Shown here in pieces: positions 1 through 7,146 of a DNA stretch of 64,000 nt (within the stretch, counting starts at the first letter, position 1; every line of letters starts with the position of its first letter). The notes under the pieces are model-generated. The model saw nothing but the letters and a program-made list of their open reading frames with translations, ran no database searches and was not told where the DNA came from. The DNA lies in assembly GCF_024199845.1 (NCBI RefSeq), contig NZ_JANADO010000001.1:1488001-1552000 (forward strand). Reading direction: 5' to 3'. This DNA is from Bradyrhizobium sp. CCGB12 (GTDB taxonomy: Bacteria > Pseudomonadota > Alphaproteobacteria > Rhizobiales > Xanthobacteraceae). A program made the translations under genes and the position numbers.

Positions 1-412
1 CCGCGATCACGCCGGCGCCGATCACGAACATCAGCGCGGCCCAGGCATAGCCCGCGACCGTGACATATTCAGGAACGGTCTCGACGACGATCGGCGGCAT
101 GTAGCGCAGCATCCAGCCGCGCTTGAGCATGATCGCGCCGATGGCGAAATGCGCGATCGCGGGTTTCGCCAGCATGAAGCGCGGATCATTGGTCAGCAGT
201 GTGATCGCGCCTAGTCCGATGACGAGCGCGAGGCTCGCATAGGTCATGTAGTTGAGCTGCTGCCCCTTGATGCGGGCATAGATCACCTGCGCGATCGCGC
301 CGGCAATCGCCACTGACGTCGCCAGGACGACGTTGTCGGTGGTGAGGTAGATGACCAGGAAGACGATGGCGGAGAGGAAGTCGGAGGCGAGGCGGGCGAA
401 TACGACTTTCAT
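1..412 (-). CDS. IspZ/YciB-family inner-membrane protein, C-terminus outside window
   Basis: The reading frame opens with ATG at 412 and runs off the left edge, so about 137 residues are visible. The product is almost wholly hydrophobic, with four or five likely membrane spans. A central NDPRFMLAKPAIAHF stretch followed by LKRGWMLRYMPP resembles the conserved loop of septation protein A (IspZ/YciB), an inner-membrane protein linked to cell-envelope integrity. It starts 12 bases after the stop of the upstream membrane-protein gene, so the two form an operon under the promoter and operator at 1019-1091. Family assignment is by remembered resemblance. Confidence 0.65.
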   Translation of the reverse strand, partial: MKVVFARLASDFLSAIVFLVIYLTTDNVVLATSVAIAGAIAQVIYARIKGQQLNYMTYASLALVIGLGAITLLTNDPRFMLAKPAIAHFAIGAIMLKRGWMLRYMPPIVVETVPEYVTVAGYAWAALMFVIGAGVIA

Positions 413-424
413 CGTCGATCCTGT

Positions 425-1000
425 TCAGCGGGCGTTTTGCAATACGCGGGCGGGCGTACCGTACTTCAACTGGCGATACTCGGGATACCATTTTGTGAAG
501 TAGATTGCGCTGTTGCGGGCGGCAAAGGCGACCGCAAGACTCGACCACAACGGCAGGCCGGGGAAGTAGAGCAAGACGATATTGGCCGCCATCATCAGCA
601 GCGCGGCCACGGTCCAGGCGCCGGTGATGATGTAATTGGCGGTGAGGAAGCCCGGCATCGCCGCGGTCTCGGCCGGGACTGATTCAACCGCATATTGCAG
701 CGTGAAAGGGCGGCGGACCAGCATCGAGCCGAGCGAGATGACGAAGACGCCGATATCGACCGACAGCTTGACGCCGAGCGTGCCCAGCGCCGGATCGATC
801 AATGCGAGATAGAGGCCGATTGCGGCGAACACGACTGCCGAGCCTGCGGCCAAAGTCTTGACCGAGCGGGCGCGCGCGACATCGATCGCGATGGTGGCGA
901 GGCAGATCGCGGAAGCTGCGAACACGCTGAACGTAGCTGACGTCACCAGCATCAGGAAGGTGAACGCGCCGTAGGGCGCCAGGATCAGGAAAATCGCCAT
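425..1000 (-). CDS. Integral membrane protein of unknown function
   Basis: A 191-residue protein with about five hydrophobic segments: near residues 5-35, 50-70, 75-95, 120-145 and 150-165. The C-terminus is short and basic. No catalytic motif is visible and I do not recognise a named family with certainty. It is the first gene of an operon with the IspZ/YciB-like gene. Its promoter carries the same palindromic operator as the carotenoid oxygenase gene, so it is probably controlled by the TetR-type regulator at 2953-3687. A role in membrane or envelope adaptation is inference from context only. Confidence 0.7.
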   Translation of the reverse strand: MAIFLILAPYGAFTFLMLVTSATFSVFAASAICLATIAIDVARARSVKTLAAGSAVVFAAIGLYLALIDPALGTLGVKLSVDIGVFVISLGSMLVRRPFTLQYAVESVPAETAAMPGFLTANYIITGAWTVAALLMMAANIVLLYFPGLPLWSSLAVAFAARNSAIYFTKWYPEYRQLKYGTPARVLQNAR

Positions 1001-1018: not shown

Positions 1019-1091
1019 TTATCTTTACGATGTAAAGATAAGTAATTGAGAGAGGGCGCCCGGTCAAGCGAAATCTTTACAATGTCAAAAT
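1019..1091 (-). promoter_or_regulatory. Promoter and TetR-type operator of the membrane-protein operon
   Basis: On the minus strand a -35 TTGACC (complement of 1062-1067) is followed 17 bases later by a -10 TACTTA (complement of 1039-1044). Immediately downstream is a perfect palindrome with 10-base arms, TTATCTTTAC-GAT-GTAAAGATAA, at 1019-1041. A second, half-conserved copy, ATCTTTAC-AAT-GTCAAAAT, lies at 1073-1091, just upstream of the -35. The same arrangement recurs upstream of the carotenoid oxygenase gene. Confidence 0.75.
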
Positions 1092-1340
1092 GACGTAGGC
1101 GGCTTCCAAAAATTGAAGCGTTGCAACGGCTCGGTCGATCATCTTGTCTGCAAAGTCCGCCCAGGGCAGGCGGGAGACGATCGGTAGGGCGGCGGAGACC
1201 GCAAGGCCGACGGAAAGCAGGATGCCGCCGCTGATTGTGGGCCCCCCGCCGTACCGCGATCGGCCCATCTGCGGTGTCAGCGCGGTGCAGGCCAGCACGA
1301 GGACGGCGAGGCAGTCTGTGGTGATCGAGGGCATGTGCAT
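1077..1340 (-). CDS. Small hydrophobic protein of unknown function
   Basis: An 87-residue reading frame starts at ATG 1338-1340 with GGAG six bases upstream. It has a hydrophobic N-terminal stretch (residues 8-20) and a second one near 38-55, so it could be a small membrane or exported protein. Its stop codon lies inside the upstream operator copy of the next promoter. No family is recognised. It may be real because of its ribosome-binding site and position between same-strand genes, but nothing else supports it. Confidence 0.35.
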   Translation of the reverse strand: MHMPSITTDCLAVLVLACTALTPQMGRSRYGGGPTISGGILLSVGLAVSAALPIVSRLPWADFADKMIDRAVATLQFLEAAYVILTL

Positions 1341-1357
1341 AGGAAACTCCTGTTTCC

Positions 1358-1439
1358 GTCATTCCTGGGCACGCGAAGCGTGAACTCTGAGGCGCAACTG
1401 CGCATCGTAGCTTGCGACTTCGTCGCGTCCCGGAATGAC
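1358..1439. repeat. Imperfect palindromic intergenic repeat (REP-like)
   Basis: The ends are inverted copies, GTCATTCC at 1358-1365 and GGAATGAC at 1432-1439, with further complementarity inside (GGGCACGCGAAG against CTTCGTCGCGTCCC). It sits directly downstream of the carotenoid oxygenase stop codon. This resembles the dispersed palindromes common between genes in Bradyrhizobium and relatives. Confidence 0.6.
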
Positions 1440-1448
1440 AAGCGGGCT

Positions 1449-2846
1449 CTACGCCGCCCCCACCCAATTGCCGTGAAAGCCGTCGGGCACGCGATGGCCG
1501 AGCTGCAGCAGGGCCACGGGCCCTGCTTCGACATCGGTGGCGTTGAACACGGCGAGGTCGCTGCGGTTCTCCCGGGCTCGCCAGACCACCGCGAGCAGCC
1601 AGCCGTCGCCCTCGGCGGCGTCTTTCGACCGCTCGACGAAAACAGGCTCGGAGATGGTGTCGCCGGCAGGGAGCAGATAATGGCCGAGCCGCCGGCCGTT
1701 GCCGTCGACATGGACGATGCCTGAGAGCGCGCCGAACATCGGCAGCCTCGGATTGGCGCAGGCGTACCAGCCGTGACGGCTCTTCAGCCCGGCGCGACGA
1801 TCGTCGATGCGAGGGAATTCGCCGGTGAGATCGTCGAGATAAGTCTGCTGGAAGCGATCGGTATTTCCCGCGAGATCGAACGTCCAGCGGCAGTGGCGGG
1901 CGCGCGATTTTTCCGGATCCGTCGGCCGGCCGTCGGGATGCGGGAACAGCGGCGCCTCCTCGAACTGCATGACGTCGGCGACGATGCGGCCATCGTCCTC
2001 CCAGGCGTTCATGATGTGGAAGACGTAGCAGGCTTCACCGCGAAACCAGACGATGTCCCTGGCGGTGCCGTTCCGCTTCATCACGCCGACATAGGCGCCT
2101 TTGTCCGGCTCCCAGGCATAGGGCGGCCGTCCGCTCATCGCGCGCTCCATGCTGCCTGTGATCGGGAGGATCGGGAACAGCACGTGGTTCGCGGTGACGA
2201 TGAAGTCGTGCACCATGCTGGCATAGGGCGCCTCGAAGCGCTCGAAGCGCGTCGCCTTGCCGGACGCATCGATCGATCCGTAGGAGAGGGCAGGCGACAG
2301 CGGTCCCGCCGCGTTGTAGCCAAAGAATACGAGCTCGCCGGTGACGGGATCGACCTTCGGATGCGCCGTGAAGCTGCCGGCGATGCGGCCCTCATAGTTG
2401 TGGTAGCCGCGCGTTGCCAGCGTGCCCGGCTCGATCTCGGTCGGCAGATGCGCTTCCTCCAGCGCGAGCAGCTTGCCGGCATGGAAGATGATGTTGGTGT
2501 TGGCGACGCCGCCGTCGGTGACATCGGCCGGTGCATCCGGCAGCTTGCGGCCGAAGCCGCCGAACAGGGCGCGGCCGGCGTCGTGCTCGGCCAGCCATTT
2601 CGGCGTGCGGACCCAGCGGTTGCGGTAGCTGGCGCGGCCGTTCTCGAGGTGGAAGGCGTGCAGCATGCCGTCGCCCACGAACCAGTGCGAGCCGGGCGAA
2701 GAGAACTGCGGATTGGGGCCGTTGCGATAGAGCGTGCCGTTCAGCTCACGCGGCAATTCACCGATGATCGTCAGGAATGGCGCGTCGGCCTCGAACGGAA
2801 TCGGCGCGATGTTGTTACGGCGCTCGGTGACGGCATCCTGCTGCAA
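1449..2846 (-). CDS. Carotenoid-cleavage-type oxygenase (RPE65/lignostilbene dioxygenase family)
   Basis: A 465-residue protein. Four histidines expected to hold the catalytic Fe(II) are visible at about H162 (FTAHPK), H213 (MVHDF), H277 (YVFHIMNA) and H458 (GFHGNW), and the length is normal for the family. These enzymes split a double bond of carotenoids, apocarotenoids or stilbenes with O2; the substrate cannot be told here. I take the TTG at 2844-2846 as the start: it has AGGAGG eight bases upstream, whereas the upstream extension would cover the -10 box and operator. Expression is probably controlled by the adjacent divergent TetR-type gene. Confidence 0.85.
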   Translation of the reverse strand: MQQDAVTERRNNIAPIPFEADAPFLTIIGELPRELNGTLYRNGPNPQFSSPGSHWFVGDGMLHAFHLENGRASYRNRWVRTPKWLAEHDAGRALFGGFGRKLPDAPADVTDGGVANTNIIFHAGKLLALEEAHLPTEIEPGTLATRGYHNYEGRIAGSFTAHPKVDPVTGELVFFGYNAAGPLSPALSYGSIDASGKATRFERFEAPYASMVHDFIVTANHVLFPILPITGSMERAMSGRPPYAWEPDKGAYVGVMKRNGTARDIVWFRGEACYVFHIMNAWEDDGRIVADVMQFEEAPLFPHPDGRPTDPEKSRARHCRWTFDLAGNTDRFQQTYLDDLTGEFPRIDDRRAGLKSRHGWYACANPRLPMFGALSGIVHVDGNGRRLGHYLLPAGDTISEPVFVERSKDAAEGDGWLLAVVWRARENRSDLAVFNATDVEAGPVALLQLGHRVPDGFHGNWVGAA

Positions 2847-2861
2847 CGGCGTATCCTCCTG

Positions 2862-2946
2862 ATCTTTACATCGTAAAGATGAGATAGTCCCGATTGCCGT
2901 TCCGGTCAAGCGAAATCTTTACACTGTCAATATTGCGTCCTATAGC
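2862..2946. promoter_or_regulatory. Divergent promoters with two operators between oxygenase and TetR genes
   Basis: Minus strand: -35 TTGACC (complement of 2904-2909), 17-base spacer, -10 TATCTC (complement of 2881-2886), then a perfect palindrome ATCTTTAC-ATC-GTAAAGAT at 2862-2880. Plus strand, for the regulator: -35 TTTACA at 2918-2923, 17-base spacer, -10 TATAGC at 2941-2946. The second operator copy ATCTTTAC-ACT-GTCAATAT (2915-2933) overlaps the regulator's -35, which suggests autoregulation. The layout closely copies that at 1019-1091. Confidence 0.75.
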
Positions 2947-2952
2947 TTGTCC

Positions 2953-3687
2953 ATGGGCAAGAGCGAAACCAGGACCGCGCACGGTGTGCGCGCTCCGAAG
3001 AAAACATCGGCGGTCTCGAGCGCATCCCAGCGTTCCACGCGGCGCCCGGCGGCTGCGAAGACCGAAACACCCTATCATCACGGCGCCCTGCGCGAGGCGC
3101 TACTCCAGGCCGCCGAACGGGTGCTGGAGCGTGACGGGCTTGGCGGCCTGACATTGCGCGCGGTGGCGCGCGAGGCGGGCGTCTCGCACGCCGCCCCCAC
3201 CCATCATTTCGGCGATCTCACCGGGCTTCTCAGCGAACTCGCCGCCGTCGGCTTCCGCCAGTTCAACGCCGCGATGGCCTCGTCCTCCGACGCCGCCACC
3301 ACGCCGCTCGAGTGCGCGCTGGCGCGGCCGAAAGCCTATGTCGCCTATGCGCAGGCTCATCCCGGCATGTACGGCATCATGTTCCGCAGCGAGCGGCTCG
3401 ATTATTCCAGACCCTCGCTGCACGAGGCGGCCGAAGCCTCCTTCGCCGGCCTTGCGAATGCCATCGGCGCGATGCGGCAGGAGCAGATCAGTGAAGATGC
3501 GCTGACGCTGAACCAGGGCGCCGCGATCGCACGCGCCTGGTCGATGGTGCACGGCTTCACCATGCTGCTGCTCGACGGCCGGCTGAAGGATATCTTGGAG
3601 CGGCTGCCCGAAGGGACGACCGCCGAACGGTTGTTCGAGGCGATGCTGATGGCACCCGTGGCGGGGAAGCTGCCGGATTGCCCCTGA
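2953..3687 (+). CDS. TetR/AcrR-family transcriptional regulator
   Basis: About 244 residues. After a basic, serine-rich N-terminal tail of roughly 35 residues comes a TetR-type helix-turn-helix region: HHGALREALLQAAERVL, then LTLRAVAREAGVSHAAPTHHF. The rest is a helical ligand-binding domain of the TetR C-terminal WHG type. The ATG at 2953 lies about seven bases after the putative -10, so a leaderless transcript is possible; a TTG six bases earlier is an alternative. It is divergent from the carotenoid oxygenase gene and probably represses that gene, itself and the operon at 425-1000. The ligand is unknown, perhaps an apocarotenoid or lipid. Confidence 0.85.
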   Translation: MGKSETRTAHGVRAPKKTSAVSSASQRSTRRPAAAKTETPYHHGALREALLQAAERVLERDGLGGLTLRAVAREAGVSHAAPTHHFGDLTGLLSELAAVGFRQFNAAMASSSDAATTPLECALARPKAYVAYAQAHPGMYGIMFRSERLDYSRPSLHEAAEASFAGLANAIGAMRQEQISEDALTLNQGAAIARAWSMVHGFTMLLLDGRLKDILERLPEGTTAERLFEAMLMAPVAGKLPDCP

Positions 3688-5125: not shown

Positions 5126-5701
5126 ATGCCAGACATCGCTTCCAGCAAATCTTATCGCGTCGGCCGTTCCAAGACCGGACTTGGCCTCTTCGCAACCATG
5201 CCGATCAAGAAGGGGACGAGGATCATCCGCTATTTCGGGCCGATCCTGGACTCGCGGATTCCTGCGCATGACGAGATCGAGAACAAATATCTGTTCGAGC
5301 TCAACAACCGCTGGACCATCGACGGTTCGGTGCGCAAGAACCTCGCCCGCTACATCAACCATTCCTGCCGGCCCAACGCGGAATCCGACGTCCGTCCGCG
5401 CGAGCGCAAGGTCTTCATTCGCGCCATCAAAAACATCGAGCCGGGCGACGAGATCAACTACGACTACGGCACCGACTATTTCAAAGCCTATCTGAAGCCG
5501 ATCGGCTGCAAGTGCGCCTCCTGCGAGAAGAAGCGCAAGAAGCTGCGCGCCGAGGCGCGCGCCGAACGTGCCAAGGTGAAGGCGCGCGACGAGCGCAAAG
5601 CGACGAAAGCGGGCGCCAAGGATCTCAAGAACAAGGCCACCAAAAAGAAGAAGTTCAACGGTCACGCCGTCGCCAAGGCGAATGGCCGCGCGCGGGCCTA
5701 A
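5126..5701 (+). CDS. SET-domain protein-lysine methyltransferase
   Basis: A 191-residue protein from ATG 5126. SET motifs are complete: GLGLFA at 18-23 (SAM site), RYINHSCRPNA near 75-85, and GDEINYDYG at 107-115 (catalytic tyrosine region). A post-SET cysteine cluster, C128, C130 and C133, would complete a zinc site with C81. The last 55 residues are a lysine/alanine-rich tail. SET enzymes transfer methyl groups from S-adenosylmethionine to lysine side chains; the bacterial substrate is unknown. The lysine-rich DUF6321-like protein 0.8 kb away is an obvious candidate, by inference. An upstream in-frame extension overlaps the divergent gene and is rejected. Confidence 0.85.
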   Translation: MPDIASSKSYRVGRSKTGLGLFATMPIKKGTRIIRYFGPILDSRIPAHDEIENKYLFELNNRWTIDGSVRKNLARYINHSCRPNAESDVRPRERKVFIRAIKNIEPGDEINYDYGTDYFKAYLKPIGCKCASCEKKRKKLRAEARAERAKVKARDERKATKAGAKDLKNKATKKKKFNGHAVAKANGRARA

Positions 5702-5728
5702 GCTTGGGCCTTCGTCTCTGGAATGCTG

Positions 5729-5753
5729 GGTCGCCCGGCTAAGCCGGGCGACC
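5729..5753. repeat. Perfect 25-base palindrome (REP-like or terminator)
   Basis: Twelve-base arms GGTCGCCCGGCT and AGCCGGGCGACC flank a single A. It lies between the convergent SET gene and the 5778-6176 gene. There is no T-run, so it is more likely a dispersed palindrome than a classic terminator, though it could block transcription from both sides. Confidence 0.6.
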
Positions 5754-5777
5754 ACTGCGTGTGGTGAGCCGGTTGAA

Positions 5778-6176
5778 CTACGCCGCGACCACACTCCCGC
5801 TCTTCCGCAGTCCCACATACTGCAGCTCGGCGAACACGCCGGTCGCGATGGCCTGCGCCACGACCATGAGCTCGCCTGCGAGGTTCGGCGACACCGCGCC
5901 CGAAAGCAGCAGCGCGATGCTGCCGACTGTCCAGGCCGCATTGCCGATCACGACGAGCAGCACGAGCGCCCTGGAAACGGATGCGCGCGCGGCGAGCCAG
6001 CCGACCAGCGCGGTGTAGGCGATCAGGAACAGGCCGGTTTCACGCAGCAGCATTTCGGGCAGGCTGAACAGCGAGGCGAACGCGCCTGCGCCGAAGGTGA
6101 AACCGAGGGCGGCGACGCCGCTGAAGACGGCGTCGGCGAGCAGTGCACGGCGCAGGAAGGTGGATGCTTCGATCAT
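5778..6176 (-). CDS. Small four-helix membrane protein
   Basis: A 132-residue protein from ATG 6174-6176, with AAGGAG upstream. It has four hydrophobic segments (near 12-35, 45-65, 72-95 and 103-122) and ends in a short tail. No motif points to a function. It follows the 76-residue gene by 31 bases and shares its promoter, which contains a TTACC-N5-GGTAA operator also found in front of the XRE/MmyB-like regulator at 18334. It is therefore a likely member of that regulator's regulon. Confidence 0.7.
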   Translation of the reverse strand: MIEASTFLRRALLADAVFSGVAALGFTFGAGAFASLFSLPEMLLRETGLFLIAYTALVGWLAARASVSRALVLLVVIGNAAWTVGSIALLLSGAVSPNLAGELMVVAQAIATGVFAELQYVGLRKSGSVVAA

Positions 6177-6207
6177 CGTGGTTCTCCTTGGTTGAGGTCG
6201 GGGGACA

Positions 6208-6438
6208 TCACCGCAGGCCGCGCCACCGGGCGCGCAGCAGGCGGGCGAGGCGAAATGGGCAGAGGCTCCTGCCCACGCCGTGCTCGAAGGCGACGACCTG
6301 CGCGACGACATAGTCGCCGGTCGAATGCACGAGCGGTTCCGGCATGTTGAGGCTGCGCGCCAGCATCCGGGTTGCGAATGCCATCGCCCAGGGCAAGACG
6401 CGGTCTGCGATGGTCCGGTAGAGCAGCAGCGCGATCAT
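6208..6438 (-). CDS. Small basic protein of unknown function
   Basis: A 76-residue protein. I prefer the second ATG (6436-6438) because AGGAG lies seven bases before it, while the ATG at 6444 directly abuts that site. The N-terminus is mildly hydrophobic (MIALLLYRTIADRVLPWAMA) and the C-terminus arginine-rich. It is the first gene of the operon with the four-helix membrane protein. No family is recognised. Confidence 0.55.
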   Translation of the reverse strand: MIALLLYRTIADRVLPWAMAFATRMLARSLNMPEPLVHSTGDYVVAQVVAFEHGVGRSLCPFRLARLLRARWRGLR

Positions 6439-6486
6439 GGTCATCTCCTGTTGAGACCAAGATGCGCGCGTTCGCGCCTCGTTTCG

Positions 6487-6502
6487 ATTACCTCGCGGGT
6501 AA
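6487..6502. promoter_or_regulatory. Operator-like inverted repeat shared with the XRE/MmyB-like gene
   Basis: The sequence ATTACCTCGCGGGTAA contains arms TTACC and GGTAA around TCGCG. The 16 bases are identical to the core of the site at 18281-18301. It lies 49 bases upstream of the start at 6438, in the promoter region of the 6208-5778 operon. Confidence 0.65.
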
Positions 6503-6558
6503 AAGGGGCGGCTATGTTTTGCGGCGGAGGCCGTGTGCGGGAGATCAGAAGATTGGAT

Positions 6559-7146
6559 CTACCCGATGGCGCGCGGCAGCATGCCCTTTGCGGTGATTTC
6601 CGCTGAAAGCTCTTCGATGGACTTACGTTGTTCCATGGCGGTGCGGCGGATCAACGCAAAGGCGGCCGGCTCGGCGAGCGCGCGCGAATGCATGACCTGA
6701 AGGACGGCGGCCAGAACGACACGACGTGACCGAAGGCGTTGCTCGAGCTTGACGATCTGCTGCTTGAACTCGTTGGTGCGTTCGTTTCGTTCGAACGCCA
6801 TGACGAGCGCCGCGTAGATGCCGGCCGAACGCAACGGCTTGACGAGGAACGAGGCTGGATCGAGCTCGAACACCAGCTTCAGGCGGCTCGGCGTCTCGGT
6901 GCCGAGCAGGGCGATGACCGGACAGTGTCCCAGCAGCGCGCGCAGCGCCGGGTGTACCACTGGCAGGAAATCATCGTCGATCAGCATCAGATCCGGAGCG
7001 AAATTGATTGCGCCCGCGGGCTCCCATGCGATGCCGTCTATGCCCAGACGCTCGAACTGGCGTCGCACGATCGAGGCGTCGCGGTCGTCCTTGATGGCGA
7101 CGAGAGCCTTGCGTCCGCGCAGCGAAAATGAAGACGGCTTGCTCAT
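6559..7146 (-). CDS. amiR: AmiR-type ANTAR antitermination regulator
   Basis: A 195-residue protein. The first 120 residues form a pseudo-receiver domain without a normal phosphorylation pattern (LMLIDDDFLPVVHP is the nearest acidic cluster). A coiled-coil-like segment follows (NEFKQQIVKLEQRLRSRRVV), then a C-terminal ANTAR-like RNA-binding region (AFALIRRTAMEQRKSIEELS). In Pseudomonas, AmiR binds leader RNA and prevents termination unless held by AmiC. Its start overlaps the amiC-like stop by four bases, so the two are co-translated, as in known AmiC-AmiR pairs. The likely target is the leader of the divergent amidase operon. Confidence 0.8.
   Translation of the reverse strand: MSKPSSFSLRGRKALVAIKDDRDASIVRRQFERLGIDGIAWEPAGAINFAPDLMLIDDDFLPVVHPALRALLGHCPVIALLGTETPSRLKLVFELDPASFLVKPLRSAGIYAALVMAFERNERTNEFKQQIVKLEQRLRSRRVVLAAVLQVMHSRALAEPAAFALIRRTAMEQRKSIEELSAEITAKGMLPRAIG

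Follow-up and report, generated by a model that had tools for sequence, protein, structure and literature searches.

A TetR-family regulator of Bradyrhizobium sp. CCGB12 very probably acts as a local, self-regulated repressor with paired operators at each promoter under its control. We analyzed 64,000 nucleotides of contig NZ_JANADO010000001.1 (positions 1,488,001 to 1,552,000, hereafter the window), and the conclusion draws on sequence comparisons within the window, across the genus and in more distant relatives.

Promoters and operators in the window

The relevant features of the window are as follows.

2..412, minus strand: YciB/IspA-like membrane protein, 191 aa, running off the window (whole gene at L041:7837-8412)
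425..1000, minus strand: MemA, 191-aa membrane protein, weakly VC0807-like
1021-1091, minus strand: promoter P_mem
1021-1039, no strand: O1 of P_mem, perfect 8-3-8 palindrome, 19 bp
1039-1044, minus strand: -10 of P_mem, TACTTA, overlapping O1 by 1 nt
1062-1067, minus strand: -35 of P_mem, TTGACC
1073-1091, no strand: O2 of P_mem, two-mismatch copy of the 19-bp palindrome
1077..1340, minus strand: P87, ORF of 87 aa containing hydrophobic segments, follows the oxygenase as second ORF; the stop codon falls within O2 of P_mem
1449..2846, minus strand: RPE65/carotenoid-oxygenase-family gene, 465 aa, TTG start at 2846 after AGGAGG
2862-2933, minus strand: promoter P_cco
2862-2880, no strand: O1 of P_cco, perfect 8-3-8 palindrome abutting the -10
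2881-2886, minus strand: -10 of P_cco, TATCTC, after a 17-nt spacer
2904-2909, minus strand: -35 of P_cco, TTGACC, 5 nt from O2
2915-2933, no strand: O2 of P_cco, two-mismatch copy of the palindrome, including the tetR -35
2918-2923, plus strand: -35 of tetR, TTTACA
2941-2946, plus strand: -10 of tetR, TATAGC, after a 17-nt spacer, with the ATG (2953) 6 nt further on
2953..3687, plus strand: tetR, 244 aa, with TetR_N (PF00440) and TetR_C_33 (PF13305) domains

The preliminary description reported two near-identical promoters, and every element of them was confirmed to the base: the link GGTCAAGCGAA is identical in both (1062-1072 in P_mem, 2904-2914 in P_cco), a 17-base spacer follows the TTGACC -35 in each, and the palindrome lies at the -10. 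The upstream elements had been read as half-operators; their sequence stands, but they are whole operators with one degenerate half carrying two mismatches. The tetR promoter with the upstream operator over its -35 was found as described, TTTACA lying inside O2. The -10 elements on the minus strand are both weak. No promoter was scored at P_mem, P_cco or tetR by a strict scan for the sigma70 consensus, in which position 6 of the -10 had to be T. A study of B. japonicum USDA 110 gives the promoter consensus as TTG-N(16-18)-TATA (PMC4842269).

The operators are rare. Within three mismatches the window holds four matches, against 0.02 expected from shuffles, and the proposed scan of the whole 9.43-Mb genome for the 19-base palindrome returned only four sites with up to two mismatches, all at P_mem and P_cco. 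Six more sites appear at three mismatches, about the level of the reversed control (5 in all).

P_mem resembles a duplicate of the divergent promoter that has kept O2 and the link but lost the tetR-side -10; O2 is retained there despite the absence of a divergent gene. Two further observations concern the adjoining sequence. The last codons and stop of P87 (ILTL-stop) are encoded within O2 of P_mem, and an intergenic inverted repeat, GTCATTCC...GGAATGAC, seen by eye between the oxygenase gene and P87 (window 1358-1440), has a similar counterpart in L259.

The initiation codon of tetR lies 4-8 nt past the predicted -10 in 63 of the 64 tetR-side promoters examined, so the tetR mRNA is likely leaderless, with a predicted start at ATG 2953. 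Leaderless mRNAs have been reported from B. japonicum USDA 110, with 320 start sites 0-10 nt 5' of start codons (PMC4842269).

Promoter conservation and the proposed mechanism

We recovered 108 operator pairs from 66 of 75 fetched loci, 105 of them with an assigned gene. Operator columns mostly approach 2 bits in these 105 promoters, and flanks outside the promoter elements mostly stay below 0.5. Because the rows were picked by palindrome similarity, the operator conservation is partly selected for; linker, -35 and -10 played no part in the choice. A TA pair stands 17 nt past the -35 in 92 of the 105, and O1 begins 5-8 nt after the first -10 base in 102.

These alignments bear on whether the second promoter is under regulation at all. 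P_mem and P_cco have 37 of 53 bases in common and look like duplicates, as they would if the sites had persisted merely through recent promoter duplication and had no regulatory function at P_mem. We regard this as extremely unlikely, since across several genera both operators are near invariant, whereas the spacers and what was once the tetR-side -10 have diverged.

The position of O2 raises a different question, as its conservation beside the -35 could also be compatible with activation. TetR might then activate P_cco and P_mem from O2 and repress tetR, with O1 tuning the output. By script, 100 of 105 promoters have O2 5 nt from the -35, a count that rises to 102 once two TTGACTTGAC rows are read by eye, and the arrangement extends to P_mem, where no divergent gene needs O2. 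O1, however, is the better palindrome and sits where bound protein would repress, over the -10 and start region, and most TetR proteins of this kind are repressors; such a dual mode is thus improbable.

We therefore favor a repressor, inferring that the protein binds these sites, represses transcription instead of activating it and responds to an inducing ligand. A TetR dimer would bind the 19-bp palindrome. Since O1 covers the -10 end and the start point, TetR bound there should keep the promoter from opening. O2 would lie at about -60 to -42, adjoining the -35; between the divergent tetR and oxygenase genes it also covers the tetR -35, which would provide autorepression. A ligand, probably hydrophobic and possibly the substrate or product of the oxygenase, would bind TetR and release control, so that three units would open together: tetR, the oxygenase gene together with P87, and the membrane operon of MemA and the YciB-like protein.

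Distribution and link to the neighboring TetR

An operator site with at most one mismatch occurs in 142 of 146 genus genomes, with none in the reversed control. The full architecture (O2 end, linker, TTGAC and O1, zero mismatches) was found in 179 of 195 genus genomes and its reversed pattern in 0 of 195; some of the 16 assemblies without it are incomplete. Copies number at most two per genus genome, except in two genomes with three, and one further genome has two copies on separate contigs. The preliminary description would have counted a palindrome near many unrelated genes without the regulator against its proposal; no such scatter was seen, the genus normally having the architecture at two promoters or fewer.

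Some sites lie elsewhere. In two Bradyrhizobium genomes a third operator pair precedes an M20 amidohydrolase gene (L052:5582-5653 in G128, L275/L277 in G078); the two genes are 89% identical, and the genome of the window has an M20 amidohydrolase gene without operators. At L263:5550-6019 (G170) a lone one-mismatch operator, maybe a chance occurrence, stands about 47 bp 5' of a small putative membrane-protein ORF away from the TetR locus.

The small regulon proposed earlier, comprising tetR, the oxygenase and the membrane operon, is supported by the family-wide comparison. Among 198 family genomes, with a TetR orthologue defined by at least 188 bits (the next match being a 171-bit paralogue in a genome already counted), 41 of the 49 genomes that have the orthologue carry the exact architecture, against 0 of the 149 that lack it (Fisher p 9e-35, a value that ignores kinship and is inflated by it, although the direction is plain). 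One of the 149 (G218) has a possible split orthologue (140 and 115 bits) and lacks the architecture. Eight orthologue-bearing genomes lack the exact pattern (G329, G231, G166, G283, G189, G187, G303 and G255); degenerate operator pairs 53-54 bp apart are present in the first three, and imperfect or shifted pairs in G283 and G189. In G237, from another genus, a second architecture copy lies about 13.6 kb from the tetR copy, upstream of a 37%-identical MemA, which makes this genome the best single case for operators following an unlinked membrane gene. The regulon is well supported because the architecture tracks the TetR orthologue and recurs at this unlinked MemA. In L264, the oxygenase (5402-6799) and MemA (from 10766) stand about 4 kb apart with other genes in between, and both promoters have both operators.

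Outside the family, 13 of 332 genomes of the order have a site with at most one mismatch. A related TetR gene stands beside the site in nine of them; the other four are at background level, since the reversed control matches in 5 of 332.

The palindrome might instead belong to another regulator or to several TetR paralogues, the neighboring TetR being a bystander, given that the genome encodes another TetR with 37% identity to that of the window. Against this stand the absence of the architecture from all family genomes without the orthologue, the TetR genes beside sites outside the family, and the 12.5 kb around the paralogue, in which no operator was found at up to four mismatches; we consider a bystander role very improbable. 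The assigned TetR scores above cut-off for both domains (PF00440, 36.4 bits; PF13305, 51.9 bits), and its recognition region, GVSHAAPxHHF, is identical across the family TetRs aligned (15 rows). A literature search, with most subscription papers outside its scope, yielded no article about this TetR, about its operator or about the gene combination.

Gene content of related loci

The best 80 named loci of the TetR search comprise 78 from Bradyrhizobium, one from a Bradyrhizobiaceae MAG and one labelled Frankia. All four genes (tetR, oxygenase, MemA and YciB-like, each at 60 bits or more) are present in 72 of these 80; seven lack MemA and one lacks the oxygenase. On a tree of 67 TetR rows, of which 48 have the oxygenase and 19 lack it in the fetched stretch, its presence must have changed at least four times, three of them by well-supported branches, and in many relatives without the oxygenase tetR is directly divergent from MemA. 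The oxygenase thus comes and goes within the family and MemA can be lost, so that by this comparison both are dispensable. L127, L128, L136, L137 and L139 carry a different oxygenase (37-39%), divergent from a different TetR (31-32%) and situated within a few kb of the MemA-YciB operon; no window-type oxygenase was found in these stretches.

The oxygenase and P87

The gene described as a carotenoid-type oxygenase is a member of the RPE65 family (PF03055, 451.6 bits), the only one found in the genome, but its scores stay under the curated cut-off in each of the three sub-families that it matched. Among these, neither 8'-apo-carotenoid 13,14-cleaving dioxygenase (NF052295, 310.9 of 675 bits) nor lignostilbene dioxygenase (NF053778, 419.8 of 800 bits) can be assigned. 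Its TTG start is inferred, close relatives mostly having GTG at the same place. The four iron-binding His are kept in 50, 50, 50 and 49 of 50 orthologues, one row having Tyr, and the second-shell Glu is kept as well.

Substrate-binding positions were mapped from alignments with solved relatives; we take the positions compared to be those of Tyr101, Lys134 and Glu135 of LsdA, with their LsdA roles. The Tyr is replaced by Phe and the Lys by Glu in 50 of 50 orthologues, and a lignostilbene dioxygenase defined by the Lys and Tyr that hold the substrate 4-hydroxyl is likewise rejected. According to a study that included a fungal homologue, these two residues hold the 4-hydroxyl of the stilbene substrate; in the fungal enzyme, Lys-to-Ala lowered product formation about twentyfold at 1 h, and Tyr-to-Phe retained about half of it (PMC12308385). 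Given both the replacements and the Lys-to-Ala effect, a 4-hydroxystilbene is an unlikely substrate.

The P87 frame stays open in 18 loci, where its sequence is similar and the differences by codon position number 3475/2318/4337; being open throughout, and with differences highest at the third position, it is probably a real small protein.

Membrane proteins

MemA is predicted to be helical, from a poor model (pLDDT 63.9), and could not be placed in the VC0807 subfamily (NF041646, 21.2 of 65 bits). For its neighbor, the earlier IspZ/YciB-like assignment holds at the level of the broad family, the part in the window scoring 55.6 bits for PF04279 over a cut-off of 28.7, but not for the septation equivalog (NF001325), for which it reaches 57.2 of 180 bits with the 137 aa in the window and 54.7 as the whole protein. 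An IspA-family member scoring 200 bits is encoded elsewhere in the genome, at 7.20 Mb, and the protein of the window reads as a divergent second copy. A model of its orthologue (pLDDT 89.7) has six longer helices and gave no significant match to solved folds.

Downstream genes for a 98-aa protein, an SH3-domain protein and a DUF3616 protein may belong to the same operon. Near the regulon, an ORF at window 5127-5701, by eye SET-domain-like with a basic tail, stays nearby in many relatives.

Related modules in the order

The nine loci outside the family with a TetR gene beside the site (L250-L258) have other partners. The divergent gene is ABA4-like (PF14108) in the three that were scanned (L250, L255 and L258); L251, L252, L253 and L256 resemble these by eye, and in L254 the gene encodes a short-chain dehydrogenase. 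No window-type oxygenase was found in these nine 10-12-kb stretches. The recognition residues differ from those of the family (SPAAP in L254-L257) beside similar sites, an observation that counts against the favored model.

A further gene combination, similar in kind to that of the window, is present at L143:4703-7600. There a paralogous TetR (48%) has an altered operator pair, spaced 52 bp apart, and is divergent from the gene of a DUF6790 membrane protein, behind which comes an RPE65-family oxygenase that weakly matches a Tat signal. The recognition helix of this TetR has KNHF for THHF and its operator ATATTTAC for ATCTTTAC; the two changes are paired also in L140, making two cases only.

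Implications and comparison with known systems

There is nothing unusual in the regulatory mechanism proposed here: it would be a typical autoregulated TetR switch whose paired-operator promoter is well conserved. More interesting is the puzzling pairing of small membrane proteins with an oxygenase that cleaves alkenes. One speculative and rather unlikely reading is that a single operator-TetR lineage across the Hyphomicrobiales controls small multi-pass membrane proteins, and that these enzymatically convert or else carry a lipophilic polyene or alkene, which the oxygenase cleaves and TetR senses. The membrane partners are VC0807/YciB-like, ABA4-like and DUF6790 proteins, with an RPE65-type oxygenase in two settings and a short-chain dehydrogenase in one genome. 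The reading would fit the role of plant ABA4, which acts in carotenoid (neoxanthin) metabolism. If true, the oxygenase would cleave a polyene or alkene to aldehydes, and TetR would sense the same compound. A genus-wide regulon with a defined operator would offer one reporter for seeking both the TetR ligand and the oxygenase substrate, and linking two poorly known families of membrane proteins to an enzyme of oxidative cleavage gives a testable hint to their role.

Compared with YciB/IspZ septation protein A (PF04279), the YciB-like protein shares the family match but scores far under the equivalog cut-off. The best solved sequence relatives of the oxygenase are lignostilbene alpha,beta-dioxygenases (LsdA 6ojr; 6xm6; 5j53; E ~1e-94 to 1e-96), with which it has the four His ligands and the second-shell Glu in common; it differs from them in falling below the NCBIfam cut-off and in having Phe for Tyr and Glu for Lys.

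The TetR - ABA4-like modules of other Hyphomicrobiales families (L250, L255 and L258) resemble the window in their related TetR (38, 45 and 40%), similar operators and divergent small membrane-protein gene. They differ in having PF14108 as partner, no oxygenase found in the 10-12-kb stretches, and an operator spacing of 33, 35 or ~52 bp; in L250 and L258 the ABA4-like gene is followed by an unclassified 260-281-aa protein, unlike in the window. The broader class of autoregulated local TetR repressors with a divergent target (PDB relative 3on2, E 1.4e-23) has the same TetR_N and TetR_C_33 domains and, as here, a palindromic operator over divergent promoters and a small regulon. Unlike that class in general, the system described here places a pair of operators at each promoter in a fixed frame, the second promoter included.
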